64,000 bases of DNA from Meghimatium bilineatum (Eukaryota > Mollusca > Gastropoda > Stylommatophora > Philomycidae). Shown piece after piece: positions 7,381 through 63,300 of this stretch (within the stretch, counting starts at the first letter, position 1; every line of letters starts with the position of its first letter). Under the pieces are notes generated by a model that worked only from the letters and a program-made list of their open reading frames with translations, made no database searches and had not been told where the DNA came from. The translations under genes were made by a program, and so were the position numbers. The stretch is taken from positions 8,247,501 to 8,311,500 of the forward strand of contig CM067314.1 in assembly GCA_034231615.1 (NCBI GenBank), written 5' to 3'.

Positions 7381-8325
7381 GAATTATTTTTTCAGAAGTC
7401 CTAATTGTTTAACAAGTTAATTTTCTCAGAAGTCCTAATTGTTTAACAAGTTAATTTTCTCAGAAGTCCTAATTGTTTAACAAGTGAATTTTTTCAGAAG
7501 TCCTAATTGTTTAACAAGTGAATTTTCACAGAAGACCTAATTGTTTAACAAGTGAATTTTCTCAGAAGTCATAATTGTTTAACAAAAGAATTTTCCCAGA
7601 AGTCCTAATTGTTTAACAAGTGAATTTTCCCAGAAGTCCTAATTGTTAAACAAGTGAATTTTCCCAGAAGTCCTATTTGTTTAATAAGTGAATTTTCTCA
7701 GAAGTCCTAATTGTTTAACAAGTGAATTTTCTCAGGAGTCCTAATTGTTTAACAAGTGAATTTTCCCAGAAGTCCTAATTGTTAAACAAGTGAATTTTCC
7801 AAGAAGTCCTAATTGTTAAACAAGTGAATTTTCTCAGGAGTCCTAATTGTTTAACAAGTTAATTTTCTCAGAAGTCCTAATTGTTTAACAAGTGAATTTT
7901 CTCAGAAGTCCTAATTGTTTAACAAGTGAATTTTTTCAGAAGTCCTAATTGTTTAACAAGTGAATTTTCACAGAAGACCTAATTGTTTAACAAGTGAATT
8001 TTCTCAGAAGTCATAATTGTTTAACAAAAGAATTTTCCCAGAAGTCCTAATTGTTTAACAAGTGAATTTTCCCAGAAGTCCTAATTGTTAAACAAGTGAA
8101 TTTTCCCAGAAGTCCTATTTGTTTAATAAGTGAATTTTCTCAGAAGTCCTAATTGTTTAACAAGTGAATTTTCTCAGGAGTCCTAATTGTTTAACAAGTG
8201 AATTTTCCCAGAAGTCCTAATTGTTAAACAAGTGAATTTTCCAAGAAGTCCTAATTGTTAAACAAGTGAATTTTCTCAGGAGTCCTAATTGTTTAACAAG
8301 TGAATTTTCTCAGAAGTGAATTTTT
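7381..8325. repeat. 34-bp minisatellite with 442-bp higher-order unit
   Basis: About 28 copies of a 34-bp unit with the core 'gtcctaattgtttaacaag'. Diagnostic variants (gtgaattttttcag, cacagaagacc, cataattgtttaacaaaag, tttgtttaataag) recur in the same order with an offset of 442 bp (7484 to 7926), exactly 13 units, so a 13-mer block was duplicated. Confidence 0.95.
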
Positions 8326-10683: not shown

Positions 10684-10888
10684 GGTCTCAAATGTGTCTT
10701 TAATATCATCAGATGTTCCCCCCATCGAGGCCAGAACCTTGAAGTGGTGATGGGGCTTAGTTCAGCCATCAGAGGCTGGAAACTAAGACTGGTCGGGCAC
10801 TCCCACTCGAGCAGGACCATAGTCCGGCCCTAGTAAGCAGAGTGCTGAAGACGGAGGCAACCAGCCAAAAGGCGCACAGATAATCAGG

Positions 10889-12055
10889 TTGCCACGCATA
10901 AAACACAATGGAAACATGTCTGCATCTAATAAATGTTATGGTGCCTGCCCTGTGGCGGACGTTCAGGCAGGGACGGTGCCGGGCCCTATACCTCGAAAGG
11001 GCCCAACCTCAGTTACTGGAAGTCCTTCTCAATTGCCCCGAGGAGCCAGGAGGCAAGGGAATAGAGCTACTGGCCAAACAAACAGACGACCAATAAAAAT
11101 AATGCACTGGAATGCTGAGGGTGTCAACAGTAAAAGAGATGGATACAGCAAAAAATTGGAACTTGAAAATGTCCTCAGTGAAGAACAAGTTAATATTTGC
11201 TGTATCCAAGAAACACACCTCAGCAGCGACATAGCCTTCAAAATCAGAGGCTACCAGTGCTACCGATCTGACCGAAAAGACAGGCGAAAGGGTGGAATTC
11301 TGACACTAGTTAAAAACAATATCAGCGCATGTCAGCTGGAAGTATACATGGACGGGGCAGAATACCAGATGCTCCACATAAAAACAGACAGTGCAGAATT
11401 CCATCTCCTGAACTACTACTGCCCAAATGATAAACCATTGGCACTAGACACAATTCCAGATAAAGAAAGGCTTATGGTGTGTGGTGACTTCAACAGCCAC
11501 TCTCAGAGCTGGGGCTACGATCATATCGACAAGAGAGGTGAGGAACTTGAGAGCTGGCTGGATGAAAATAATCTCATTCTTATTAACCAGCCAGCTGACT
11601 CACCAACCTTCTACTCGAGAGCATGGCACACCACCTCTACACCAGACCTGGCATTCTACTCACCAGGCCTGGAATGGAACATCACACGTGTCGTTGGAAA
11701 GCAGCTTGGGGGTAGTGACCACAGACCAGTATTTCTGGAAATTCACAATGAATATACCAAGGACAGCAGCACGCTCACTAGGTGGAACTATAAGAGGGCA
11801 GACTGGAAAATGTACCAGCATTTAACCAGTGTTCTAGCTAAGGACATGAACTTGGACATCAATAGAGCAGTGAGTGAATTTAATAGATGTATACTACATG
11901 CTGCTAGTAAAACCATACCCAGGGGGGCACGCAAAAACTACAAACCCTACTGGAATGATGAACTGGAAAAGCTGCAAAATGAGATGGAAACATCTAGAAA
12001 GCAGGCTGAGAACAGACCTAGCCAAGAACATCACAACAAATATCAGCAAACATAG
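10889..12055 (+). CDS. LINE-A1 apurinic/apyrimidinic-type endonuclease domain
   Basis: 388 codons ending at a TAG (12053-12055). The first ~70 residues are basic and unremarkable. The endonuclease/exonuclease/phosphatase fold follows: HWNAEGV (catalytic-region Asn), IQETHL (Glu), RKGGILTLV, GDFNSHSQSWG (Asp-Phe-Asn), TPDLAF (Asp) and the terminal GGSDHRPV (Ser-Asp-His). All expected active-site motifs are present, so the nuclease, which nicks the genomic target for target-primed reverse transcription, looks intact. The TAG is not a natural end: reading on in the same frame from 12056 there is no further stop until 14734, so it is probably a single nonsense change splitting one polyprotein. 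Confidence 0.9.
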   Translation: MPRIKHNGNMSASNKCYGACPVADVQAGTVPGPIPRKGPTSVTGSPSQLPRGARRQGNRATGQTNRRPIKIMHWNAEGVNSKRDGYSKKLELENVLSEEQVNICCIQETHLSSDIAFKIRGYQCYRSDRKDRRKGGILTLVKNNISACQLEVYMDGAEYQMLHIKTDSAEFHLLNYYCPNDKPLALDTIPDKERLMVCGDFNSHSQSWGYDHIDKRGEELESWLDENNLILINQPADSPTFYSRAWHTTSTPDLAFYSPGLEWNITRVVGKQLGGSDHRPVFLEIHNEYTKDSSTLTRWNYKRADWKMYQHLTSVLAKDMNLDINRAVSEFNRCILHAASKTIPRGARKNYKPYWNDELEKLQNEMETSRKQAENRPSQEHHNKYQQT

Positions 12056-14734
12056 GCTAAATTTCAAAGAGCCAAGTTACAAGCCAGACGGAACAGCTGG
12101 AAAGAAAAAACAGAGTCGCTGAACCTAGAAAGAGATACTAGGAAATTATGGAAACTTGTAAAACAACTAAATGATGAAGGTACAGGGAGAAATACCAGGA
12201 TCACACTTTATAAAGATAAAAACATTTTAACAGGTAAACATGCAGCTGATTACTTTGCAGATTCCTTTGCAGAAGACAATAACGTCAATGTCAGCCCAGA
12301 CAAACAACAGGAGGTTCGAGCGAACCAGCAAAACATTGGACAAGACGAACCTATACCTGAAGTCATGGAGGCACCAATCACAATGAGAGAACTGGAGCAT
12401 GCAATATCCAAATTGAAAATGAAAAAGTCCCCTGGAGCTGATGGAGTGTCCAATGAAATGATTAGAAACCTGGGAATTGCAGCAAGAGCAAAGCTGCTGC
12501 AAATCTTTAACACAAGCTGGTCCACAGGTAATGTACCACAGGCGTGGAGAGAAGCAATAATGATACCACTCCTCAAATCAGGAAAAGATGGCAACACAGT
12601 CTCCAACTACAGGCCCATCAGCCTCACATGCTGTTTATGCAAAACAATGGAACGCATTATCAATCTTAGGATGCAGTGGTACCTTGAAAGTGAAAACCTT
12701 CTGGTATCACAGCAAGCAGGTTTCAGACAGTGCTACTCTACTGAAGATCAGGCAACCTACCTCTCCCAAGAGATTGAGGATGCCTTCCAAGATAAGAAAC
12801 TGGTACTAGCAGCATGGGTAGACCTTAGGAAAGCATTTGATAAGGTCTGGAAAGAAGGGCTCCTAAAGAAATTGCGAAATTGCAGGGTTAGCTCAAGAAT
12901 GTACAAATGGGTAAAAGCATACCTGCATAATAGAAGAGCCAGGGTACAATTAGATGGTCGCAAAAGCAAGAAAGTCCTACTGCGTCATGGAGTCCCCCAG
13001 GGAGGAGTCCTGTCACCCACACTTTTCTTGGTTTACATCAATGACCTAGTTGCTGAACTACCACACGGGATCAAAGTGGCAATGTATGCTGACGACCTGG
13101 TGATCTGGTGCACGGAAGAACATGCAACAGTGGCCACTAAACAAATACAAAGAGCTATCGATGCCCTAACCTTATGGGCAAATAGATGGTGTGTCAGCAT
13201 TAACACAGATAAGTGCAGCACTACACTCTTTACCCTCTCACCAAAACAAAAAGCCGGTCATATCAAGATAGACGGAGAGCTCTTGAAGGAAGACAAACAA
13301 CCAACATACCTCGGAGTTACTTTTGATGATAAGCTGACATGGAAGCAGCACATAAACAAAGCAACAACAAAAGCCAGGAGGAAGTTAGCTATCCTGAGAA
13401 AACTAAGTGGAACCACATGGGGAGCCAGTGGGAATATACTCAGTAAAGTTTACCAGCAAGGCATAAGACCACACCTGGAATATGGTTCAGCTGCGTGGTG
13501 TCCTGCATCAAACACCACATTACAAGATCTAGATAAAGTGCAAAACCAGGCACTTAGAATAATGTTGGGAGCAATGAAATCAACACCCATAGCAGAGATG
13601 CAGAAAATGGGAAGAATGCAAACACTTGGCGAACGCAGAGACACAAAAGTACTAATTCAAGCGGAAAAGTTTCAGTGTATGCCAAGTCATCCAATGAAGG
13701 AAAGATTCAAAAACCTAGCAATGGGGCGACTGAAAAGAAGCAGCTTTATCCATCAAGCTAAACGACTCCGTAGACAACTTACAGACCTACCTGAAGTTGA
13801 CAGCCCCTTAAGGTCTGTACCAGAACAAACCCCATGGAGTGAAAGGCATGGAATGCCAATATACATTCAGACCCATGTGAAAGGAATACTAAGCGAGGAC
13901 GAACAGAACAGTGTGCAGCGGAGGACAGTCACCCTCAGTTTCCTGGACGAGGAATATCCACAAGATATATGGGTCAGAGTATACACAGATGGGTCAGCAC
14001 AGAATGCTGTGAGGAATGGAGGTGCAGGTGTATATATAGAATATCCACACAAGCCTAGAGATACAATCAGAACACCGACAGGAAAATTCTGCAATAATTA
14101 TGATGCAGAAATCCAGGCAATTACTGTGGCAGCTAAAAAACTGCTGAACTCCAACTCTGACCTACAGCCTGTGGTATTCCTGACAGATGCAAGGTCAGTG
14201 CTTCAAGCTCTCCAGTCTGGAAAACTAACAGACTTGAAAAAACTACTTAGCGAATTGTCTTACCAGTATAGGGTAACCATGCAGTGGATACCCTCTCACT
14301 GTGGAATACCAGGAAATGAAAAAGCAGACCAACTGGCTAAGGAAGGTGCTGCCGAAGATCAACCAGATATACCAATCACCTACCATCAGAAAAAACAGAT
14401 GATCAAGTCAATAAGAAAGCCACAAACACCAACACAAGATGACTATCACATTATGAACAGATCAGAACAAGTTATAATTCTACGTCTCAGAACAGGACAC
14501 AACCGACTCCGCAGTCACATGTATACAAAGTTCAAGATTGGCAACACGGCCATGTGTACATGTGGACAGGCAGTACAGAGTGCCAAACATATACTTCAAG
14601 AGTGTTCTGAGCATGAAACGCTGAGGCAGACATATTGGCCAGAGGAAACAACACTGGAATCAAAGCTCTATGGGACACTGTATGAACTACAAAAGACAGT
14701 GAGTTTTATTAAGGAGACAGAATTACAGATATAG
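12056..14734 (+). CDS. LINE-A1 reverse transcriptase-RNase H region
   Basis: The same frame as the endonuclease, open from 12056 to the stop at 14734; the first internal ATG is at 12365. RT motifs in order are KSPGADGVSNEM, NYRPISLTCCLCKTMERII, AWVDLRKAFDKVW, HGVPQGGVLSPTLFLVYINDL, the catalytic AMYADDLVIW (about 13079-13108) and TYLGVTFD. The RNase H domain follows with its acidic residues: YTDGSAQN (about 13983), EIQAITVAA, FLTDARSVL and WIPSHCGIPGNEKADQLA (about 14286). The C-terminus carries a Cys/His cluster (CTCGQAVQSAKHILQEC). All catalytic residues are present. It would be active only if the upstream stop were absent or read through. Confidence 0.92.
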   Translation, partial: AKFQRAKLQARRNSWKEKTESLNLERDTRKLWKLVKQLNDEGTGRNTRITLYKDKNILTGKHAADYFADSFAEDNNVNVSPDKQQEVRANQQNIGQDEPIPEVMEAPITMRELEHAISKLKMKKSPGADGVSNEMIRNLGIAARAKLLQIFNTSWSTGNVPQAWREAIMIPLLKSGKDGNTVSNYRPISLTCCLCKTMERIINLRMQWYLESENLLVSQQAGFRQCYSTEDQATYLSQEIEDAFQDKKLVLAAWVDLRKAFDKVWKEGLLKKLRNCRVSSRMYKWVKAYLHNRRARVQLDGRKSKKVLLRHGVPQGGVLSPTLFLVYINDLVAELPHGIKVAMYADDLVIWCTEEHATVATKQIQRAIDALTLWANRWCVSINTDKCSTTLFTLSPKQKAGHIKIDGELLKEDKQPTYLGVTFDDKLTWKQHINKATTKARRKLAILRKLSGTTWGASGNILSKVYQQGIRPHLEYGSAAWCPASNTTLQDLDKVQNQALRIMLGAMKSTPIAEMQKMGRMQTLGERRDTKVLIQAEKFQCMPSHPMKERFKNLAMGRLKRSSFIHQAKRLRRQLTDLPEVDSPLRSVPEQTPWSERHGMPIYIQTHVKGILSEDEQNSVQRRTVTLSFLDEEYPQDIWVRVYTDGSAQNAVRNGGAGVYIEYPHKPRDTIRTPTGKFCNNYDAEIQAITVAAKKLLNSNSDLQPVVFLTDARSVLQALQSGKLTDLKKLLSELSYQYRVTMQWIPSHCGIPGNEKADQLAKEGAAEDQPDIPITYHQKKQMIKSIRKPQTPTQDDYHIMNRSEQVIILRLRTGHNRLRSHMYTKFKIGNTAMCTCGQAVQSAKHILQECSEHETLRQTYWPEETTLESKLYGTLYELQKTVSFIKETELQI

Positions 14735-18520: not shown

Positions 18521-19690
18521 CGAGGGGGAGTCAATAAGTAAGTCACAAATGGCTCTTTAGAAAAAAACTGAAGACGATAAAAACCTGAAAACTGTTTATT
18601 TTTACACATACATTATCCCTTTACTTCTCAACATAATTTCCACCAACATTGATGCATTTATCCCATCGTTTTATGAGTCCTCCCAAACCTGCTGCGTAGA
18701 ACTGCGTGCTCTGCTTTTTAAGCCACATTTTCACTTCACATTCAACTTCTGCGTCAGTCGCGAAATGCTTCCCGCCAAGGTGGGTTTTTAGTGGACCAAA
18801 AAGGTGAAAATCACTAGGGGCTAAATCGGGGCTGTAAGGAGGATGTTCCAGAATTTTCCAACCAAGATTTTTTATTTTCTCCTGAGTTAATCGAGCTGTA
18901 TGTGGTCTAGCATTGTCATGAAGGAGTAGCACTCCTCTAGTCAGCAGCCCTGGACGTTTTCTTCGAATTGCATCCCGAAGCACTGATAGAACTTCACAGT
19001 ATGATTCAGAATTCACATTGTCACCTTTCTTTTTGAAATTGGTTAAAAGCACTCCTTGACAATCCCAGAACACTGTCAGCATAACCTTCCCTGCTGATGG
19101 TGTAACCTTGAATTTTTGGACACAAGGCGAAGAAGGATGTTTCCATTGCATTGAAGCACGCTTTGATTCAGGCTGGTAGTGATGCACCCATGATTCGTCC
19201 CCAGTAATAATCCTGTTCATCATGTCTTCTCCTTCATTTGCGTATTGACAGAGATGCTCCAATGACAAGCCTAATCGGTTCATTTTGTGTTCGTCCGTCA
19301 ATTGTCTGGGCACCCACCTTGAACACACTTTCTTAAATTTCAATCGGTCATGCATGATGCTGTATGCTGAACCATGTGAGCACCCTATTGCAGCTGCTAC
19401 AGCGTCTATCGTTACTCGTCTGTCCCCTCGAATCATCTCCTCAACCCGCTGCACAGATGCGTCTGTTGCAATTTCAACAGCACGACCAGATCGGATTTCG
19501 TCAACAATTTTAGAGCGTCCTTGAGAAAATTTTTTTACCCAGCTGTGCACCGCTTTACGGGACAAACAATTGTCAGCATAAACAGGAAGCATTTCTTTAT
19601 GAATGTCTTTTGCAGGCAGTCCTTTTATATACATGCGGTTGTGTCTGTGGGTCTCACCAATTACTACTAGACAAACCACCCATGCGACAG
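18521..19690 (-). mobile_element. mariner transposon
   Basis: The transposase gene (18621-19679) is followed on its 3' side by an end 'cgagggggagtcaataagta' starting at 18521, directly preceded by TA, the expected target dinucleotide. I cannot find a convincing inverted copy of that end to the right: the sequence after 19690 is a different short hairpin repeat also present at 21886. The element may therefore have lost its 5' terminal repeat, leaving an intact gene in an immobile copy. Confidence 0.85.
18621..19679 (-). CDS. mariner transposase (DD34D), uninterrupted frame
   Basis: 352 codons without a stop, about the usual length for mariner transposases. The N-terminal part holds two helix-turn-helix regions for terminal-repeat binding (about 'KDIHKEMLPVY' to 'VHSWVKKFSQGR', and 'TIDAVAAAIGCSHGSAYSIM'), joined to the conserved linker 'SRWVPRQLTDEHK'. 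The catalytic domain has ITGDESWVHHY (first Asp), LLHDNARPHTA (second Asp) and YSPDLAPSDFHLF (third Asp). I count 34 residues between the second and third Asp, which defines mariner rather than Tc1. The start is chosen as the first Met of the open frame; the first ~12 residues look atypical, so the true start may differ. Confidence 0.92.
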   Translation of the reverse strand: MVCLVVIGETHRHNRMYIKGLPAKDIHKEMLPVYADNCLSRKAVHSWVKKFSQGRSKIVDEIRSGRAVEIATDASVQRVEEMIRGDRRVTIDAVAAAIGCSHGSAYSIMHDRLKFKKVCSRWVPRQLTDEHKMNRLGLSLEHLCQYANEGEDMMNRIITGDESWVHHYQPESKRASMQWKHPSSPCVQKFKVTPSAGKVMLTVFWDCQGVLLTNFKKKGDNVNSESYCEVLSVLRDAIRRKRPGLLTRGVLLLHDNARPHTARLTQEKIKNLGWKILEHPPYSPDLAPSDFHLFGPLKTHLGGKHFATDAEVECEVKMWLKKQSTQFYAAGLGGLIKRWDKCINVGGNYVEK

Positions 19691-19765
19691 AAAATCTTAG
19701 TAGATGACATGCCGGCTTATTGAGGCTCTCCTATGGAAGCTTTTTAGCATGTCATTTATACAATT
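19689..19765. repeat. short hairpin repeat H (copy a)
   Basis: The arms 'agatgacatgcc' (19702-19713) and 'agcatgtcattt' (19746-19757) are near-complementary around a ~32-nt loop. It is collinear with copy b at 21886-21965 (cagaaaa.cttag.agatgacatgcc ... gaagctt...ca). A small MITE or other structured dispersed repeat. Confidence 0.6.
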
Positions 19766-47819: not shown

Positions 47820-49825
47820 CTACTCAGAGAGTATAGTTATAGACCTAATTGTAGCACAAGGTATTTCACACTGAGTTGGTCTACTATAAGTGAGCTGTAG
47901 CAGAAGGTATTTCACACTGAGTTGGTCTAATGCGTCTGTGCTGTAGAACGAGATATTTCACACTGAGTTGGTCTACTGTGCCTGAGCTGTAGCACAAGGT
48001 ATTTCACACTGAGCTGGTCTATGTCTGAGCTGTAGCAGAAGGTATTTCACACTGAGTTGGTCTACTGTGTCTGAGCTGTAGCACAAGGTATTTCACACTG
48101 AGCTGGTCTATGTCTGAGCTGTAGCAGTAGGTATTTCACACTGAGCTGGTCTACTATGTCTGAGCTGTAGCAGAAGGTATTTCACACTGAGTTGGTCTAC
48201 TGTGTCTGATCTGTAGCAGAAGGTATTTCACACTGAGTTGGTCTACTGTGTCTGTGCTGTAGAACGAGGTATTTCACACTGAGTTGGTCTACTGTGTCTG
48301 TGCTGTAGAACGAGGTATTTCACACTGAGTTGGTCTACTGTGTCTGATCTGTAGAACGAGGTATTTCACACTGAGTTGGTCTACTGTGTCTGAGCTGTAG
48401 AACGAGGTATTTCACACTGAGTTGGTCTACTGCGTCTGTGCTGTAGAACGAGATATTTCACACTGAGTTGGTCTACTGTGCCTGAGCTGTAGCACAAGGT
48501 ATTTCACACTGAGCTGGTCTATGTCTGAGCTGTAGCAGAAGGTATTTCACACTGAGTTGGTCTACTGTGTCTGAGCTGTAGCACAAGGTATTTCACACTG
48601 AGCTGGTCTATGTCTGAGCTGTAGCAGAAGGTATTTCACACTGAGCTGGTCTACTATGTCTGAGCTGTAGCAGAAGGTATTTCACACTGAGTTGGTCTAC
48701 TGTGTCTGATCTGTAGCAGAAGGTATTTCACACTGAGTTGGTCTACTGTGTCTGTGCTGTAGAACGAGGTATTTCACACTGAGTTGGTCTACTGTGTCTG
48801 TGCTGTAGAACGAGGTATTTCACACTGAGTTGGTCTACTGTGTCTGATCTGTAGAACGAGGTATTTCACACTGAGTTGGTCTACTGTGTCTGAGCTGTAG
48901 AACGAGGTATTTCACACTGAGTTGGTCTACTGTGTCTGTGCTGTAGAACGAGGTATTTCACACTGAGTTGGTCTACTGTGTCTGTGCTGTAGAACGAGGT
49001 ATTTCACTCTGAGTTGGTCTACTGTGTCTGATCTGTAGAACGAGGTATTTCACACTGAGTTGATCTACTATGTCTGAGCTGTAGCAGAAGGTATTTCACA
49101 CTGAGTTGATCAACTATGTTTGAGCTGTAGCAGAAGGTATTTCACACTGAGTTGGTCTACTGTGTCTGAGCTGTAGCACAAGGTATTCCACACTGAGTTG
49201 ATCAACTATGTTTGAGCTGTAGCAGAAGGTATTTCACACTGAGTTGGTCTACTGTGTCTGAGCTGTAGCAGAAGGTATTTCATACTAAGCTGGTCTACTA
49301 TGTCTGAGCTGTAGCAGAAGGTATTTCACACTGAGTTGATCTACTATGTCTGAGCTGTAGCAGAAGGTATTTCACACTGAGTTGGTCTACTGTGTCTGAG
49401 TGAGCTGTAGCAGAAGGTATTTCACACTGAGTTGGTCTACTGTGTCTGAGCTGTAGCAGAAAGTATTTCACACTGAGTTGGTCTACTGTGTCTGAGCTGT
49501 ATTACAAGGTATTTCACACTGAGTTGGTCTACTATATCTGAGCTGTAGCAGAAGGTATTTCACACTGAGCTGGTCTACTATGTCTGAGCTGTAGCAGAAG
49601 GTATTTCACACTGAGTTGGTGTACTATGTCTGAGCTGTAGCAGAAGGTATTTCACACTGATCTGGTCTACTATGTCTGAGCTGTAGCAGAAGGTATTTCA
49701 CACTGATCTGGTCTACTATGTCTGAGCTGTAGCAGAAGGTATTTCACACTGATCTGGTCTACTATGTCTGAGCTGTAGCAGAAGGTATTTCACACTGAGT
49801 TGGTGTACTATAAGTGAGATGTTAG
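47820..49825. repeat. 46-bp minisatellite, ~43 copies, with higher-order structure
   Basis: Unit core 'ggtatttcacactgagttgg' plus 'tctactgtgtctgagctgtagcaga'. Occasional 42-bp units lack 'tact'. The variant string beginning 'cctgagctgtagcacaaggt' appears at 47981 and 48481 followed by the same succession of variants, so a ~500-bp block was duplicated. Confidence 0.97.
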
Positions 49826-49841: not shown

Positions 49842-50510
49842 GTGCCGCAAGCGACACATAGGGCAGAGGATTTGGTTCTTCATATGATGCGGTCCGCTGC
49901 CTGCAGCTTTAGTTCCTGGATGGTATTACGGCATATTAATTCCCCTTCTTTAAGAATGGTGTTTTTAATGGTTGTTTTAGGTTTTCCTCTTTTTCTTTTA
50001 CCCTCAGGTGACCCCATAATGGCTTGTTGGTTTATTCTGTTTACATCTAGTCGTAAAACGTGACCATGTATTTCCATCTTCGTTTTCTTATGATGTTTGA
50101 AACATACTCTTGGTGTGTTATGTCTCTTAGATCACTATTTGTGACGAAGTCGCTCCATTTTATGTTCATCAGTTTGTGAAGACATTTGTTTTCGAAGCTG
50201 TTTAGGTTTGTTGTCTGTTGCTTGAGTTGATTTCCAGCTTTCACTACCATATGTTAACACTGAGACAATACATGAGTTAAATAGCTTTAGTTTGGTGTTT
50301 GTCCCTAGATCTTCTGATTTCCAGATATTAGTTAATTTAGCAAATGTGCTAGTTGCCACTGCTATACTTGTGTTTATTTCTGTCATTGAGTCTCCTTCAA
50401 CAAACATTCGGCTACCGAAGTAGTTAAAGCTGTAGATTTTTTCCAGTATTTGGTTATTTACTAAGATGACATTTGTTGATCTCGTGAGATGTAGCGGGAG
50501 GTATTTCATA
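49842..50510 (-). pseudogene. LINE-E RT thumb and tail
   Basis: The minus strand encodes, in three frames, 'EKIYSFNYFGSRMFVEGDSM', 'TNIWKSEDLGTNTKLKLFNS', 'CIVSVLTYGSESW', 'TNSDLRDITHQEYVSNIIRK', 'RRWKYM', 'GHVLRLDVNRINQQAIMGSP' and 'EGKRKRGKPKTTIKNTI'. RT thumb and tail of a LINE, 5'-truncated, at least two frameshifts. Confidence 0.85.
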
Positions 50511-50879
50511 CTCAGTCTATCTACTTAATCTGAGCTCGTTTTTACTGGCAGTTAATTTCTTATTGAATCATTGCCTCGCTCATTACGACTGATATTTTTT
50601 TTAAATTTGCAAATTTCGCTGTGATCGTCGTGCCGATGTGATTTAGTCTTTGTTTTGGTAGAAAACATCAACTTTGGAAGTCTTTCGGTGTTGTTTGTGA
50701 CTATAATCGGTAGTGCATCTTCGTGAACGTTTCCTCTTGTGTGGGTATGCCGCACTCATAGCAGCATATACATAATGTAAGAAAATGTGAATAACATAAT
50801 TACAAATTATAACGTCCAAACGTCATGGAAAATGTAAGACTATGCGAAAAACCATTTAATACAAGAAGCATTGAGGTGT
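50511..50879. other. intergenic sequence, no gene seen
   Basis: No supported features. Confidence 0.4.
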
Positions 50880-52869: not shown

Positions 52870-53029
52870 ATGGCCTGCTTTAGTGGGTGTATCCCCGAGA
52901 GAGATGGTGGAGGCCCATACTCTAGTCACGAGGAGGCCAAACAAGCAAGACTGAGGGACAAAGAACTCACCAAATTACTTAATAAACAACACAAAGAGGA
53001 TCTTAAAAGACTAAAGCTTCTTTTATTAG
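52870..53029 (+). CDS. G-alpha exon 1 (N-terminal helix)
   Basis: Encodes [16 protein letters not shown]... followed by a charged helix ([17 protein letters not shown]...HKEDLKRL) and strand beta-1 KLLLLG, with the final Gly codon split (G|GT) across the intron. The ATG at 52870 is chosen because G-alpha chains start M-x-C for lipidation and it has G at -3 and +4. Residue 2 is Ala, so N-myristoylation is not expected; Cys3 and perhaps Cys7 could be palmitoylated. Donor AG|GTAAGA. About 54 residues, with a Gly/Pro-rich insertion after residue 7 relative to common G-alphas. Confidence 0.9.
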
Positions 53030-56000: not shown

Positions 56001-59000
56001 GATTTCCATCTGCGTATCCCTGTTTTATTTGCCTCTGACGCTGTGTTGCCCTTTCATTGTATTTAGTATGTTATCCTTACGAAGACCAGGGCACGACTCT
56101 CGAGATTCATGAAGACATGACATATTTCGAAGCGTTTGTATTAGCCGTCCTCCCAATGCCTCTACGTTTCTGCTTTCCGAGCCAGAATGCTATGTGTCTG
56201 AACAGTGCCTCTGTGTTGGAGCAGATGTGCCGGAGATATTGTCTTCTTATAGTAAATTATCATTATATCTACAGCCTCCACATTTACAGAAAGTACGGAC
56301 AGGATATCCAAAAATATTGGCCTGAAACAGCACGAGTCGTTGTATAGCTGATTCCAGGGTGCACTACGAAGAGGTACACTTAGGTTCTTGATTTTCTGCT
56401 AACAGTAACAATGCACGAGAGCAATGCAGGGCCCTCTGCGCCCGAGTACTATCTTATTAAGTGGGAGAGTAAAATCACAAGATGGACAGGTTACAGTATA
56501 ACAGAGTGCACCACCAAAACAAGAGACAGGGGATGTTGGAGGTCTATTGCATCCAACCTTCATTGCGGAAAACGGCACTTGACGATGATGACTATCTTAT
56601 TTGATTATCTTATTTGAAATACCTTATTTGATTGCTCACTCATTATTAGTACTTTAAAATAAAATTACTCAGGTATTTCATCCATTCACAAGGCAGTTGA
56701 GTACCAGTACTCAAGCTTCGGGAAAGTCGAGGAATGTGGCATATCTCCGCTGAAAGTGCGGTATGGAACACTAAACATGCAGTTTCTGGTCAGCCACTGA
56801 CTTTGCAGCTCATATGGGAAAGTTGTGTATTAAGAAATCGGATAATAAATCAGCATATCTTTACCTTTATCTGCTAATGTAAAACTATCTGTACCTTTAT
56901 CTGCTAAAGTATAACTATCTTTACCGTTATCTGCCAATGTATAACTAGGGGTATCTTTGTCCACAATCTTGTGGCATCTTACTTGTTGTATATATGATAT
57001 CTTATTTGATGTATATGTGTTATCTTACTTTATCTGCCAATGTATAACTATCTTTACCTCGATCTGCTCATGTATAACTAGCTTTACCTTTATCTGCTAA
57101 AGTATAACTATCTGTACCTTTATCTGCTAAAGTATAACTATTTTCATTTCTTCTCATTGGTCGCTTCCTTGATGTCTGTTTTCTTGTGCAGGTACTGGAG
57201 AGTCTGGTAAAAGTACTATAACGAAGCAGATGAAGATTATTCACATCAATGGCTACTCGTTAGCGTAAGTCATTTCATCACTATTATTGTCAGCTAAACC
57301 ATACAGAAATCCCATTATTGACATTTCTATTATCATCCAATAAAATAGTCATCATTATTGTCATCATTATTGTCATCATTATTGTCATCATTAGTATAAG
57401 CAGGTCCATGTAATGTATCATCTATATTAATGTCTTCAGGTTACGAATCGAAAATATGGCCGAAAACTGAGCATGTTCACGTAGAATGAGTTGGGACTAC
57501 GATAAACTGTGTTGGGACTTCGATAAACTGAGTTGGGACTTCGATAAACTGTGTTGGGACTTCGATAAACTGTGTTGGGACTTCGATAAACTGTGTTGGG
57601 ACTTCGATAAACTGTGTTGGGACTTCGATAAACTGAGTTGGAACTTCGATAAACTGTGTTGGGACTTCGATAAACTGAGTTGGAACTTCGATAAACTGAG
57701 TTGGAACTTCGATAAACTGAGTTGGAACTTCGATAAACTGTGTTGGAACTTCGATAAACTGTTTTGGAACTTCGCTAAACTTAGTTGGGACTTCGATAAA
57801 CTGAGTAGGAACTTCGATAAACTGAGTTGGAACTTCGATAAACTGAGTTGGAACTTCGATAAACTGAGTTGGAACTTCGATAAATCACTGCTGACCAGAA
57901 GGGATGGCTTATCTTCAACCTGTGATCAAATACACCAGGGTAATATCGATGAGCACAAGACTGTGCTGACAACTCTGTCATCTCTGGTAGTAAGTGATGA
58001 TGAAGAGAAACTAGTATCTTTACTATGAAGTGCAGGCTTTAATCAGTGAGAATACCAAAGAGGGGGATGTGATTATATACACTGATGGATCTGTAATTAG
58101 GCATGCTCGCAGTGCTTGGGCCTTTACAGCTCAGTGCGCAGGTAAAACGATCAAGGAGGAAAGTGGTGCCTTTGCGGTCACTACGAGTAGTATGACCATG
58201 GAGACTATGGCGGTGACCAAGGCATTTGAGTGGCTACGCACACAGAAAGTAACGCAGGTCTGCATCTTGAGTGACTCTATGAGTATGATTAAGAAGGTAC
58301 AAGTGGGTCTCGTTCGCGAACAGTGGATTGAGGCCTTGAGAAATGCGAGCTTGAAGGCGGTTACATTTATTTTCATGCCGGGACATGTGGGCGTTCGAGG
58401 CAATGAAAGAGCGGATCAACTGGCATCGTGTGCGATTGTGGCAAAGGGCGATGGGGCAATGGATCGCGCTGACGTTTTGAACTCCTTAAGAGATATAACA
58501 CGCGAGAGTGAGACGAATGTGGATGATGATTCCTTTTCAATGGCTAGGATTAAAGATCAGGGATTGAGATGCGGTGTTGCTAGAGGTGAACATTTTGGAG
58601 GGCGCAGAAGAATGATGGTCAACCAGCATAGGATCGGTACTGTCAGCAGAAGTGTGATGGCGGATACACTCAAGGAGAGATCGGAGCAACTATGGATGTG
58701 TCCAGTTTGCAGTGATGATGATCCGACGACTAACTAACTAACTAACTAGTATCTTTAAACGATGCAAGGCAGACCATACAGAAGACTTCAGATAGTGCAA
58801 CTGACATAGCGCTGATACATTACTTCCTCGTTCTCCAGTCAGTCAGACACTAGTATACATTACTTTCTCATTCTCCAGTCAGTCAGACACTATTATACAT
58901 TACTTTCTCGTTCTCCAGTCAGTCAGATACTATTATACATTACTTTCTCGTTCTCCAGTCAGTCAGACACTATTATACATTACTTTCTCATTCTCTAGTC

Positions 59001-62000
59001 AGTCAGACACTATTATACATTACTTTCTCGTTCTCCAGTCAGTCAGACACTATTATACATTACTTTCTCATTCTCTAGTCAGTCAGACACTATTATACAT
59101 TACTTTCTCATTCTCCAGTCAGTCAGACACTATTATACATTACGTTCTCGTTCTCCAGTAAGGGTCGGACGCTGATATTTTCAATGAACTGTACTGCTGT
59201 CAAGGGAGCCGAGTTAGCGCAGTTAGGCACTGGCTTCGCATATGAGTGGTCCTGGGTTCATTCCCCAGTTGAGGCGGAAATATTTTTCAGATCGCAACGA
59301 CTCCCAGGTCGACCCAGCCTTAAATGGGTACCGGGTTAATCCCGGAAGTAAAGACTGTGAGGGAGAGAGGAGATGGCTACCGCCCTCATTTGCAGAACCT
59401 CTGAAATGTGAGATCGCTAACATCTCACAAGCCTACGGCATTAATAAATGCTATGGGTTACTTTACTTTTACTGATGTCAACACCCTCGTGACGGAATTG
59501 TAGGACTTGCACGTCAGAACTTTTTGAAATAGCCATAGTTATCTTCTCGTGGTGTGGTATACTGGGCAGTTCTATTAAATATGTTATGTGTTTTCGGCAC
59601 ATTGGTTATAGGGGTACATATCGGCACCGCCAACTCTATATCTCCTATTGATATGGGTTTTTTTTAAAGTCTGCGGTGACCTGATCTCAATCGAAAAACG
59701 ATTGGTAATTACTTCTTTAGGTTTGTTGTTTAATTGAGATAGAAGTCATTTCATGGCATTCGGGTGAAATTTGTTTTGTTTCTTGAGGACTTGCAATGTT
59801 CTACACCTTTCTATGTGTTACAGAGCGCAATGTAACTCTGTTTCATGCACCATATTCCAATTTGTCATGGATTAAGTCAAAGGCTTTCAGTGAACACTTT
59901 AAGGAGTTCTTGTAATGCTTTCTTTGAATATCTTGAAAGGGCAGGGTCGTACAATGATGCAGAGAGGCGGTCGCATCAGGTGGCGACAATCAAAATACAT
60001 TTAAGGGGCGGCATTTCGAAGAAAAACTTTTAAAAGAGGCGAAATTTCGAAGAAAAACATTGAAAAGGGGCGGAATTTGGAAGAATTGCATCATACTGAG
60101 AAAATCTACCGCACGGTCCCTATGAGATGGCATTCCTATTTGGGTCTTAATAGACAACTATTATAGGAGACAGTGTACTTGCATACGTAGCACATAACCT
60201 CAACAAGACAAGGTAACGAATACAATAATACGGCATGCATTACACGATCCGAGTACCTCGGTAATACAGTTCTGTGCACACATCAGGTTCTTTTAATGTG
60301 ATCCCATTTGACACTTTCCGTGATTTTCATTGGCTGTGAGCACAAATTGACCAATAAAAATCACGAGAAAAGTAAAACAACGATACTTTAGAAGGATGAT
60401 TCCAATGAATTCACAGAACTGTATTGTCGATTGACTCTCATAGCTTCAACAAGACAAAGTAACCAATATGATACGATATGGGTCACATGACACCAGAGAG
60501 AACTCTGATGAAGAAAATAAGTTCTCTTCATTTGTACAATATCTGCATGTGAATCTTAATTTAAGACATTTCTTTTCTTTTTCCCCTAGAGAGAGGCTTG
60601 AAAAGAAATCAGATATAATAAGAAATGTGAGAGAGTCAATGCTGGTAAGTGCTGAGAGAAGTGTAATCAACCATGAGAGAATCGAATAAACCATGAGAGT
60701 CGATGTGTGTAAGTGCTGAGAGAAGTGTAATCAACCATGAGAGTCGATATGTGTGTTTAGAGAAATCAAATAAACCATGAGAGTTGATGTGTGTAAGTGC
60801 TTGAATAAAACCCCCAAAAAATGTTAAAGTCGATGGTTGGAAGAGCTTGGGGAGACTGAATGAATGTGAGTGAGTCAATGTTTGTGAATGATTGCAGGAA
60901 ACGGATCGAGTGAGAATAAATGTTAATGGCTTTGATAAGCAAAATAACACATGCACGTTTTATGAATCCTGTGATACATATAGAAATGATAATGTTAACA
61001 CATGTAGTATTGATAAACCAACACTGTTGTCATTTATTTTACATTAGATAAGAACACTGATAATATATGCTAGATAATATTAAAGAGATTTCTACTATTT
61101 ATTCTTCATTATTCATTTCTACTTCATCATTTCCAACCATCATGAACTTCCAACCATCATGAACTTCTAACCATCATAAACTTCTAACCATCATGAACAT
61201 CCAACCATCATGAGCTTCCAACCATCATGAACTTGTAACCATCATAAGCTTCCAACCAACATGAACTTCCAACCAACATAAACTTCCAACCATCATGAAC
61301 TTCTAACCATCATGAACTTTCAATCATCATGAATAATAAAATAAAATGTTGTAGAAAGAACTGTATCTTGCTTCGTCTTTCAAATGTAATTTTTCTATGG
61401 TCTTCCTTCCAGTCGATTCTGGTAGCAATGCAACAACTGTGTATACCCCTTGAGAATGAGGCTAACAGGAAGGGAGTTGAATTCATCCTGCAGGAAGCAG
61501 CAGAGAATAAAACAGAGGCTTCAACCGTAGGTCATTGCTATATTATAGATTGTATGATATATTGTAGGTCATTGATGTATTCTAGATTGTATGATATATG
61601 GTAGGTCATTGATGTATTCTAGATTGTATGATATATGGTAGGTCAATGATGTATTCTAGATTGTATGATATAATGTAGCTTGTAGATGTATTTTAGATTG
61701 TATGATATATGGTAGGTCATTGATGTATTCTAGATTGTATGATATATTGTAGGTCATTGATTGTATGATATATGGTAGGTCATTGATGTATTCTAGATTG
61801 TATGATATATGGTAGGTCATTGATTGTATGATATATGGTAGGTCATTGATGTATTCTAGATTGTATGATATATGGTAGGTCATTGATGTATTCTAGATTG
61901 TATGATATATGGTAGGTCATTGATGTATTTTAGATTGTATGATATATGGTAGGTCATAGATGTATTCTAGATTGTATGATATATTGTAGGTCATTGATGT

Positions 62001-62719
62001 ATTCTAGATTGTATGATATATGGTAGGTCATTGATTGTATGATATATTGTAGGTCATTGATGTATTCTAGATTGTATGATATATTGTAGGTCATTGATGT
62101 ATTCTAGATTGTATGATATATGGTAGGTCATTGATTTATTCTAGATTGTATGATATATGGTAGGTCATTGATCTTTAAAATAGGTCATTCATACATTTTC
62201 ATGCTCCATTTCTGCCTATTAATGAAAAACTTATGGCCTTTCTGCAAAAAAAGGTGAGGGATTTTTTTGACTTGTCACCCGCCTAATGGTTCCTAGTACT
62301 AATAGTAATGTTACGTTTTGCTAGGGGAGGGTGATTTAAACTCCCCAAACCCTACTCCCCTTTATCTACGGGCCTGATCTTCAATTAAACTTTCCAAGGT
62401 TCAAGTTAATAAATGCACTGTCTGAATTTCGTGATGAAGTTGCTAAATGAAGTGACCAGTTTTCGAGTATCACCTATCGGCTCATCTTTGTAAACAATAC
62501 TCATCCCTCCTAGCTTCATACTTATTAGACATTGTTGTAATGTATCTTATATTCTAATTTTAGTCATATTAACTTCACCGTTATTTGGGTCACTCACTCG
62601 CCTATGTTGACTTTTTCATAGGAATTATGGGACCACTGTGAAAAACTCTGGGCAGATCAAGGAGTGCAGCAATGTTACTTCAGGTCTCATGAGTACCAGC
62701 TGATCGACTGCGCGAAATA
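52870..62719 (+). CDS. G-protein alpha subunit, Gs-like (5' part, five exons)
   Basis: join(52870..53029, 57192..57264, 60590..60644, 61413..61526, 62622..62719); continues beyond the window. The exons total 500 nt (166 codons plus 2 nt), join in frame, and every internal border is GT/AG. The product is a membrane-anchored GTPase subunit that couples receptors to effectors. Seen: a palmitoylatable Cys3, the amphipathic N-terminal helix, the P-loop GTGESGKST, and most of the helical domain, ending [11 protein letters not shown]. Class assignment: the 73-nt P-loop exon and the 98-nt exon beginning 'EL..' and ending CAK-Y, with the same length and phase as I recall for the vertebrate Gs gene, argue for Gs rather than Gq or Gi. 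The sequence is much more diverged than typical invertebrate Gs, so it is probably a lineage-specific paralogue. The switch regions and the C-terminal receptor-contact tail lie outside the window. Confidence 0.9.
53092..53930 (-). mobile_element. Tc1-like transposon remnant in intron 1
   Basis: Left end 'atactgctcaaaaaacaaac' (53093) and right end '...catttcttttttaacagtat' (to 53929) are imperfect inverted copies. The minus-strand frame 53186-53536 begins with a helix-turn-helix resembling Tc1 transposase ([20 protein letters not shown]), but the catalytic DDE domain is missing, and the next residues are short low-similarity sequence. An internally deleted, non-autonomous ~840-bp copy. Confidence 0.75.
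54300..54437. repeat. 31-bp minisatellite, 4 copies
   Basis: Core 'ctgccgcgattccctaccac' plus 'catccacactc'. The only GC-rich minisatellite in the window. Confidence 0.93.
54826..55380. repeat. 23-bp minisatellite with diverged tail
   Basis: Eleven nearly perfect copies of 'ttgttctatcttacttgatg' plus 'taa' (54826-55075), then increasingly diverged copies (atcttacttgatgtataagtg) to about 55380. Homology gradient from one edge. Confidence 0.93.
55381..56109. other. intron 1 sequence without recognised features
   Basis: Weak R1-like words (ttgcgccttcctgcccaaca) near 55500. The 70- and 78-codon frames near 55569 have no recognised domains. Confidence 0.35.
56110..56430 (+). repeat. dispersed repeat R2 (copy b)
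   Basis: Loose alignment with 31100-31420, same strand (caatgcctctacgtttctgc; tggcctgaaacagcacgagt; gattttctgctaac). Confidence 0.5.
56450..56600 (+). mobile_element. LINE 3' fragment
   Basis: 'aagtgggagagtaaaatcac', 'agatggacaggttacagtat' and 'aagagacaggggatgttgga' match 46765-46905; encodes the same '[20 protein letters not shown]' tail and ends in (gat)n. Confidence 0.8.
56860..57150. repeat. 30-bp minisatellite before exon 2
   Basis: 'tatctgctaaagtataacta' plus 'tctgtacctt', with an interruption at 56950-57030 resembling the 23-bp array (cttacttgttgtatatatga). Ends about 40 bp before the exon-2 acceptor. Confidence 0.85.
57192..57264 (+). CDS. G-alpha exon 2 (P-loop)
   Basis: 73 bp. 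Completes the split Gly codon and encodes [20 protein letters not shown] then YSL-A, the guanine-nucleotide phosphate-binding loop (GxGESGKS/T) and helix alpha-1. Acceptor TTGTGCAG|, donor GC|GTAAGT (phase 2). All residues needed for phosphate and Mg contact in the loop are present. Confidence 0.95.
57486..57890. repeat. 21-bp minisatellite, ~19 copies
   Basis: Unit 'ttcgataaactgagttgga' plus 'ac'; encodes [14 protein letters not shown] heptapeptides because 21 is divisible by 3. Lies in an intron of the opposite-phase host gene, so coding use is unlikely. Confidence 0.95.
58023..58744 (+). mobile_element. 5'-truncated LINE-A2 insertion with 13-bp duplication
   Basis: Bounded by perfect copies of actagtatcttta (58010-58022 and 58745-58757) and ending in the (taac)n tail. 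Only the RNase H end of the LINE was copied, the usual outcome of incomplete target-primed reverse transcription. The perfect duplication and open frame indicate a recent event. Confidence 0.92.
58030..58737 (+). CDS. LINE-A2 RNase H domain (open fragment)
   Basis: 235 codons without a stop. RNase H motifs in order: '[20 protein letters not shown]' (Asp), '[19 protein letters not shown]' (Glu), '[15 protein letters not shown]' (Asp) and '[20 protein letters not shown]' (His, Asp), then a tail ending '[12 protein letters not shown]'. The four acidic residues expected for hydrolysis of RNA in RNA/DNA hybrids are all present. The start Met is probably internal to the original polyprotein; there is no sign that it is a host gene. 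Confidence 0.88.
   Translation: MQALISENTKEGDVIIYTDGSVIRHARSAWAFTAQCAGKTIKEESGAFAVTTSSMTMETMAVTKAFEWLRTQKVTQVCILSDSMSMIKKVQVGLVREQWIEALRNASLKAVTFIFMPGHVGVRGNERADQLASCAIVAKGDGAMDRADVLNSLRDITRESETNVDDDSFSMARIKDQGLRCGVARGEHFGGRRRMMVNQHRIGTVSRSVMADTLKERSEQLWMCPVCSDDDPTTN
58812..59160. repeat. 40-bp minisatellite, ~9 copies
   Basis: Unit 'cactattatacattactttc' plus 'tcgttctccagtcagtcaga', very homogeneous. Confidence 0.95.
59203..59470 (+). mobile_element. tRNA-derived SINE, family 1 (copy b)
   Basis: Box A 'gagttagcgcagttaggcac' and box B 'gggttcattcc', then the conserved body and the end 'aaatgctatgggttacttta'. The flanking actgctgtca (59193-59202) and actgatgtca (59471-59480) are a 10-bp target duplication with one mismatch. 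Confidence 0.9.
59481..60589. other. intron 2 right part
   Basis: Besides the ~30-bp triplicate near 60000-60090, the words 'aacctcaacaagacaaggtaac' (60197) and 'gcttcaacaagacaaagtaac' (60442) form a diverged direct repeat. 'attttcattggctgtgagcac' and 'ttgaccaataaaaatcacga' near 60334 recall repeat M. No gene. Confidence 0.45.
60590..60644 (+). CDS. G-alpha exon 3 (helical domain, alpha-A start)
   Basis: 55 bp. Acceptor TTCCCCTAG|; completes the Ala codon and encodes [18 protein letters not shown], matching the Gs helix that precedes the 'I.AM..L' segment. Donor ATGCTG|GTAAGT, phase 0. The last 14 nt of the exon (gagagtcaatgctg) resemble 'gagagtcgatgtgt', which precedes each internal donor-like copy in the following array. 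Confidence 0.93.
60645..60832. repeat. donor-containing tandem array at the start of intron 3
   Basis: Begins exactly at the splice donor. The word 'gtaagtgctgagagaagtgt' at 60645 recurs at 60709; 'gtaagtgctt' occurs again at about 60793; related units carry 'aaccatgagagtcgatgtgt'. Unit length is variable (about 43-66 bp), with three or four diverged copies. Confidence 0.85.
61135..61330. repeat. 17-bp minisatellite in intron 3
   Basis: About 12 copies of 'aacttctaaccatcatg' with cca variants, ending about 80 bp before the exon-4 acceptor. Confidence 0.93.
61413..61526 (+). CDS. G-alpha exon 4 (helical domain)
   Basis: 114 bp, 38 codons, phase 0 at both ends. Acceptor TTCCTTCCAG|. Encodes [20 protein letters not shown] then [18 protein letters not shown], corresponding to the Gs segment between the alpha-A helix and the 'P-EFYEH' exon. 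Donor ACC|GTAGGT. Position and phase of both introns agree with Gs-class genes. Confidence 0.93.
61527..62172. repeat. 37-bp donor-containing array at the start of intron 4
   Basis: About 17 units of 37 bp (some 26-bp deletion variants) beginning exactly at the donor. Each unit starts gtaggtcattgatgtattct and continues agattgtatgatatatg, so GTAGGT is repeated with every unit. The array fills about 60 percent of the 1095-bp intron. Confidence 0.96.
62622..62719 (+). CDS. G-alpha exon 5 (end of helical domain)
   Basis: 98 bp. Acceptor TTTTTCATAG|. Encodes [20 protein letters not shown] then [12 protein letters not shown] and the first two bases of a Tyr codon (TA). It aligns without gaps with the Gs segment that ends in CAQ-Y. 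The donor is TA|GTAGGT; reading through instead gives an immediate in-frame TAG, so splicing here is required to continue the protein. Confidence 0.93.
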
Positions 62720-63300
62720 GTAGGTTGGCAGTGTTTGTTACAGTTAAATCCCATAATAGTAGGCTGGCAGTGTTTTCTACAGTTAAGGTTGATAGTGTTT
62801 GTTACAGTTAAATCCCATAATAGTAGGTTGTCAGTGTTTGTTACAGTTAAATCCCATAATAGTAGGTTGTCAGTGTTTGTTACAGTTAAATCCCATAATA
62901 GTAGGTTGTCAGTGTTTGTTACAGTTAAATCCCATAATAGTAGGTTGGCAGTGTTTTCTACAGTTAAATTGTAGGTTGATAGTGTTTCTTACAGTTAAAT
63001 CCCATAATAGTAGGTTGGCAGTGTTTGTTACAGTTAAATCCCATAATAGTAGGTTGGCAGTGTTTTCTACAGTTAAATTGTAGGTTGATAGTGTTTGTTA
63101 CAGTTAAATCCCATAATAGTAGGTTGTCAGTGTTTGTTACAGTTAAATCCCATAATAGTAGGTTGCCCATGTTTGTTACAATTAAATCCCATAATTGTAG
63201 GTTGACAGTGTTTGTTACAGTTAAATCCCATAATAGTAGGCTGGCAGTGTTTTCTACAGTTAAGGTTGATAGTGTTTGTTACAGTTAAATCCCATAATAA
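62713..63300. repeat. 39-bp donor-containing array at the start of intron 5
   Basis: About 14 units of 39 bp (some shortened to 25-30 bp), e.g. ttaaatcccataatagtagg then ttggcagtgtttgttacag. The first copy of 'aatagtaggttggcagtg' spans the end of exon 5 and its donor (62716-62733), so the exon's last bases and the GTAGGT donor are reproduced in each unit. Confidence 0.95.

Follow-up and report, generated by a model that had tools for sequence, protein, structure and literature searches.

Tandem arrays at the 5' splice sites of three consecutive introns in a gastropod G-alpha gene

The 5' splice sites (donors) of introns 3, 4, and 5 of a G-alpha gene of Meghimatium bilineatum lie inside tandem arrays that repeat the donor motif into the intron, with 3, 18, and 14 donor copies, respectively. 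The copies keep the splice signals GTAAGT in intron 3, GTAGGTC in intron 4, and GTAGG(T/C)TG in intron 5, and they are putative donors as read from the letters of the DNA. We favor, with moderate confidence, the reading that these arrays are intronic minisatellites of the type called mirages in amphioxus, and that they arose when local sequence that begins at the donor or crosses it was duplicated in tandem. The features of the window, i.e., the whole stretch of 64,000 nucleotides that was analysed, are collected in Table 1.

Gene model and sequence context

The window contains the first five coding exons of the G-alpha gene, which are open over 500 nt in total and place the donors of introns 1–5 at 53030, 57265, 60645, 61527, and 62720. 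With the first 166 residues as the query, the exons match Pfam family PF00503 at E 1.9e-31. The top PDB match is Golf (E 1.3e-31), Gs matches start at 1.2e-29, and a PDB chain labelled G(q) also matches the same query at E 2.1e-29; these PDB matches of the first 166 residues make it likely that the gene belongs to the Gs/Golf class. In the Golf alignment the query runs without a gap through the junctions of exon 3 with exon 4 and of exon 4 with exon 5, so that, besides sequence, protein conservation also backs the donors of introns 3 and 4 (60645 and 61527). The intron 5 donor (62720) comes right after the conserved EYQLIDCAK, and the matching acceptor is outside the window. The exon borders presumably agree with those of human GNAS. 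We claim no new intron, because on this assumption the introns appear to occupy old Gs positions. The excerpted text of a study of G-alpha exon structure (PMC5896119) contains nothing on arrays.

Minisatellites are very dense throughout the window and come in many unit lengths, for example at about 25.7–27.9 kb, 47850–49809, and 7386–8317. Arrays were defined by a uniform self-match scan (per-offset and ungapped, offsets 8–300, thresholds 14 to 20), which returned 51–54 arrays. Together these take up 17.0 to 17.8 kb, or about 27% of the window, and arrays occupy 32% of the G-alpha intron sequence. A BLAST self-comparison was dropped as a definition, as it missed the intron 3 copies and its result varied with the offset limit: with offsets of at most 100, 0/5 donors had a left edge closer than or at 25 nt, and with offsets of at most 250 or 700, 2/5 had one within 5 nt.

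The non-LTR retrotransposon of Table 1 consists of two same-frame open stretches with a stop codon (12053–12055) between them, and the DDE_3 and HTH_48 matches of the transposase frame are slightly below the Pfam cut-offs. After removal of low-complexity ORFs and of ORFs lying mostly in arrays or in three transposon ORFs, 414 stop-to-stop ORFs of at least 42 aa were left; 259 were at least 52 aa long, and 216 of those were aligned and scanned against Pfam. The matches were RVT_1 (two ORFs), RNase_H (one), DUF6451 (one, 50138–50524), and five weak ones. With regard to other genes as a source of donors, there is no second donor set among the 216 scanned ORFs, a screen that shorter exons escape. 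A Pex2_Pex12 match (E 7e-5) seen in one short ORF within 36–64 kb was absent from 20 rescanned ORFs, and scans with Rfam (gathering cut-off) and for tRNAs gave 0 matches.

Table 1. Positions of the G-alpha exons, their arrays and other features in the window
Feature	Position	Strand	Remarks
G-alpha exon 1	52870..53029	+	From ATG; gene closest to Golf/Gs
G-alpha exon 2	57192..57264	+	Contains P-loop GTGESGKST
G-alpha exon 3	60590..60644	+	Final 14-21 nt part of the repeat running on into intron 3
G-alpha exon 4	61413..61526	+	
G-alpha exon 5	62622..62719	+	Final 4-5 nt (AATA/AAATA) common to the intron 5 repeat unit
Intron 3 boundary-spanning repeat cluster	60624..60905	+	Right limit set by eye
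Intron 4 array	61527..62172	+	Starts exactly at +1; 18 GTAGGTC copies
Intron 5 array	62715..63300	+	14 GTAGG(T/C)TG copies from 62720
Non-LTR retrotransposon	10823-14731	+	Endonuclease, then reverse transcriptase and RNase H domains
Long open frame with mariner/Mos1-type transposase domains	18624-19730	-	Transposase_1, DDE_3, HTH_48
RNase H domain in G-alpha intron 2, probably a retroelement fragment	58015-58734	+	

Repeat structure of introns 3, 4, and 5

Intron 3 carries a short irregular cluster rather than a regular array. GTAAGT had been predicted at about 60645, 60709, and 60793, and we found all three sites, the one at 60645 being the authentic donor and the donor spacings being 64 and 84 nt; decayed donor copies are at 60753 and 60884 (GTGAAT at 60884). 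The left edge of the repeat is inside exon 3, at 60631 (-14) or, at the lowest threshold, at 60624 (-21). Positions 60631–60679 and 60695–60743 (offset 64) are identical at 45/49 bases, with 14 of these bases being exonic. The exon 3 stretch 60624–60641 is copied at 60863–60880 with 17/18 bases identical; the decayed GTGAAT adjoins this copy at the original spacing, and 17/20 of the bases upstream of it match the exon 3 tail. The repeat unit of intron 3 thus includes exonic sequence and spans the boundary. Because the exon 3 tail is copied within the intron, the birth of one array or more took place across an exon/intron junction, in line with what is described for amphioxus mirages (PMC3087553) and lancelet PGBD5 (PMC3902484); as far as the DNA sequence can tell, the exon-tail copies establish such a birth for intron 3 alone.

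The array of intron 4 is the only one that starts exactly at the first intron base, with its left edge in the self-match scan at 61527 (+1). It repeats GTAGGT in units of about 37 bp over 61527–62172, as the original prediction had it, and additionally contains three units of 26 nt that are short of the 37-nt unit by an identical 11 nt. Homology ends at +1: the unit has no exonic homology, the best copy having 1/5 and 2/10 exonic bases identical, and a boundary-spanning repeat is not found here. We would regard it as a donor-anchored array, mirage-like in its working without being a demonstrated boundary-spanning mirage. The first unit diverges more than most other units, and the edge units of minisatellites are often more divergent.

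The left edge in intron 5 is at 62715 (-5), 4–5 nt into exon 5, and the exonic part of the unit is alike at 4/5 nt (P 0.05 for a random stretch). The predicted GTAGGT in units of about 39 bp over 62720–63300 corresponds to 12 GTAGGT and 2 GTAGGC copies, with two further units being without GT; most units are 39 nt (11/16 pieces), and units of 31 nt and 26 nt also occur. Blocks of 104–150 nt repeat inside arrays with at most 2 mismatches, one of them beginning at the authentic intron 5 donor. The first 104 nt from this donor recur at the far end of the array with at most 2 mismatches (offset 477), a sign that the unit bearing the working donor may participate in exchange. The recurring short units (26 nt in intron 4; 31 nt and 26 nt in intron 5) and the repeated 104–150 nt blocks together suggest exchange within the arrays.

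The full-length units of introns 4 and 5 also have, 15 nt ahead of the following donor copy, an acceptor-like string (TTCTAG and TTACAG). These two arrays could in principle supply 15-nt mini-exons, and this is likely a coincidence.

The units of the three introns are otherwise unrelated, as had been proposed: their pairwise local scores were matched by 84%, 62%, and 35% of 500 shuffles. The spread of one satellite is therefore rejected. We also aligned 50 nt around each junction to at most 700 nt of the neighbouring intron and compared the scores with 200 dinucleotide shuffles. The donors of introns 3, 4, and 5 scored 61, 35, and 58, and 0/200 shuffles were as high for each of them. The donors of introns 1 and 2 scored 17 and 18, with 88/200 and 41/200 shuffles as high and no donor copy, and a whole-intron scan of introns 1 and 2 likewise revealed no donor copy; the 41/200 shuffles leave a donor array in intron 2 tied to the 12-nt repeat at 57348–57393 unsupported. 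These two introns had been put forward as internal controls; neither has a donor array, as stated, but a control would need more than two introns. Array homology was found at 0/4 of the acceptors in the window, where 141 to 195 of 200 shuffles were as high.

Splicing at any of the downstream donor copies gives a premature stop in 32/32 cases (2/2, 17/17, and 13/13 in introns 3, 4, and 5, with exons up to exon 5 only), so the exon-proximal donor presumably must be the one normally used. For pairing with the 5' end of U1, duplex energies are predicted at -10.2 kcal/mol for donor 3 vs -6.5 kcal/mol for its two GTAAGT copies, and at -5.3 kcal/mol for donor 5 vs -5.3 to -4.2 kcal/mol over its 13 copies. 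Donor 4 is predicted at -5.4 kcal/mol vs -8.8 kcal/mol for 12/17 copies and -5.1 kcal/mol for the other 5, and the 12 copies that outpair the authentic donor read ATG/GTAGGTCA. If these energies are a fair guide, the choice of the first donor in intron 4 would need a cue other than the strength of U1 pairing, exon definition for example. The copies do not fit recursive splice sites (YAG/GT), as ATG, ATT, or ATA precedes the GTAGG copies in introns 4 and 5.

Array edges and the origin of the arrays

Donors 1–5 have their nearest left edges at -1245, +83, -14, 0, and -5, the third of these moving to -21 when the lowest threshold is used. The original prediction that the arrays start at the first base of the intron therefore holds for intron 4 (+1), but not for intron 5 (-5) or intron 3 (-14/-21). 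The right edges nearest to three of the acceptors are 50, 79, and 449 nt upstream, and for the acceptor at 60590 the closest right edge falls in the next intron. A random position has a left edge within 5 nt with p 0.009. At threshold 16, a left edge occurs within 2 nt for 1/5 donors (P 0.02), within 5 nt for 2/5 (P 8e-4), within 10 nt for 2/5 (P 3e-3), and within 20 nt for 3/5 (P 4e-4; 2/5 with P 0.01 at threshold 14). When arrays are placed randomly in the introns with exons barred, 2/5 donors within 5 nt has P 2e-3; spans picked post hoc give P 1.4e-4 for 3/5 donors in the span 0 to -21 and 7e-4 for the span of the whole unit. If arrays were placed at random, edges at the donors would be unlikely, with P about 2e-3 to 1e-4 depending on the test, and the coincidence of edges and junctions is probably real, though it comes from the five donors of a single gene that was picked after inspection. 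That 3/5 donors are merely inside arrays is unsurprising (P 0.20), because arrays fill 32% of the introns.

According to the reading that we favor, a short segment from the exon/intron junction, or from just 5' of it, would have been tandemly duplicated in each of the three introns, which is backed by the exon-tail copies for intron 3 and would apply by extension to introns 4 and 5. The extra copies would land in the intron and carry no cost while the first, exon-proximal donor serves. They could then multiply and homogenise by slippage or unequal exchange, as the common short units and block repeats suggest, with the left edge being held in place by the exon, whose bases would be under selection. 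Such arrays would not have to serve any function, and an unusually minisatellite-prone genome would suffice to produce them without a mechanism that targets splice sites. The symmetric form of this duplication model does not predict arrays at donors only, and the 3/5 donors vs 0/4 acceptors are too few to count. Lariat-derived rolling copies are rejected by reasoning, as the intron 3 repeat includes exon sequence.

A junction-directed mutational process, in which 5' splice sites repeatedly seed arrays at donors, seems to us improbable as the alternative. It might work through transcription- or splicing-linked breaks or slippage, e.g., at co-transcriptional R-loops, or through microhomology of the donor hexamer with a donor-like hexamer downstream. 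The left edges at 0 and -5 (P 8e-4, or 2e-3 with exons barred), the 3/5 donors as against 0/4 acceptors, and the unrelated units would all be expected from it. However, the five donors are from one gene picked after inspection, only 1/5 is within ±2 nt (P 0.02), and coverage alone gives P 0.20 for 3/5 donors inside arrays. The contrast of 3/5 with 0/4 is not significant (Fisher two-sided about 0.17, by hand), and donor hexamers, which are at 4/106 array edges vs a 1.7% chance per edge, are not clearly enriched, two of the four being from the G-alpha arrays discussed here. The original prediction had taken unrelated units at one shared position as a sign of a repeated process at junctions rather than of the spread of one satellite. 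The argument against a single spreading satellite stands, but much of the pattern is accounted for by ordinary random duplication together with selection, without a process directed to junctions, because arrays are abundant (27% of the window and 32% of the introns) and a duplication crossing the donor is tolerable to coding selection; a single gene cannot separate the two. The broader claim that 5' splice sites are genome-wide hot spots of minisatellite birth, through duplication coupled to transcription or splicing in intron after intron independently, is similarly doubtful. If it were true, many genes would bear extended series of spare donors, often stronger ones, which the spliceosome has to ignore.

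The donors could instead have been captured, by a deletion of the sequence between the old donor and the first unit of an intronic array that already existed, so that the hexamer of the unit became the donor. This would fit intron 4, where homology ends at +1 and none is exonic, and could fit intron 5, but it leaves intron 3 unexplained, as that intron carries exon-tail copies. It also needs donor-like hexamers beforehand, and at least three GTRRGT (on either strand) are present in 5/53 arrays, three of these being the arrays in question; we think such a capture has a small chance of being correct. Least credible is that the arrays are retained for a function as extra U1 snRNP sites, in protection from premature polyadenylation or in splicing regulation, which we hold to be very improbable. 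The 12/17 intron 4 copies predicted to outpair the authentic donor (-8.8 vs -5.4 kcal/mol) would speak for it, as would the slightly better conservation of the donor columns in intron 4 (identity 0.989 vs 0.963 elsewhere in the unit, 15 full units). The donor columns of intron 5 are, however, not better conserved (0.944 vs 0.960 elsewhere in the unit, 12 full units), two intron 5 units have lost or lack the GT, and the intron 3 copies at 60753 and 60884 are decayed.

Should such arrays be common in the genome, they would amount to a natural experiment on donor choice by the spliceosome where many donors are identical or stronger, and new exons and introns could draw on them as raw material. 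Intron 4 lends itself especially well to a test in this respect, with 12/17 decoy donors predicted to outpair the authentic donor on U1. A genome-wide start of arrays at +1 beyond chance would point to a link of transcription or splicing with DNA duplication.

Relation to known systems

The amphioxus mirages that the original prediction mentioned are real: the excerpted text of PMC3087553 describes minisatellite-like tandem duplications of exon/intron boundaries in the globin genes BflGb6 and BflGb9 and in Adh3, where the repeats span the boundary, regular splicing is kept, and the repeats turn over by concerted evolution. Minisatellite-like tandem copies at the boundary, with splice signals in them, are common to these mirages and the G-alpha gene. 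The Adh3 units of 10–72 bp bracket the G-alpha unit sizes, and in BflGb9 it is a donor, at the 3' boundary of an exon, that is duplicated, as in the G-alpha gene (PMC3087553). In contrast, the globin mirages have units of 150–160 bp as against about 37–44 nt in the G-alpha gene, and BflGb6 duplicates the acceptor, whereas the G-alpha arrays are at donors only (PMC3087553). Unlike what that text describes, the G-alpha arrays occur in three consecutive introns with up to 18 copies, and exonic sequence is part of the repeat in intron 3 but hardly or not at all in introns 4 and 5. Regular splicing in amphioxus is backed by RT-PCR (PMC3087553), while that of the G-alpha gene is a reading of its sequence.

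Donor arrays in animals outside the cephalochordates did not appear in the titles and abstract openings among the matches listed, a set that mostly leaves subscription journals uncovered, and we do not claim their absence. A second cephalochordate case is lancelet PGBD5, where the excerpts of PMC3902484 describe 60-bp and 108-bp repeats in two places of the gene, the first repeat directly abutting the 5' splice site. These have 2–7 copies and larger, imperfect units (PMC3902484), unlike the G-alpha arrays.

Intron gain by duplication, as covered in the excerpted part of PMC4974935, also involves the copying of splice signals, as in the G-alpha gene. That text cites fission yeast genes with a 24-bp AGGT repeat and introns across it, and the GTAGGT of the G-alpha arrays contains AGGT. 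Unlike the new introns of PMC4974935, those of the G-alpha gene appear old, on our own assumption about the GNAS borders.
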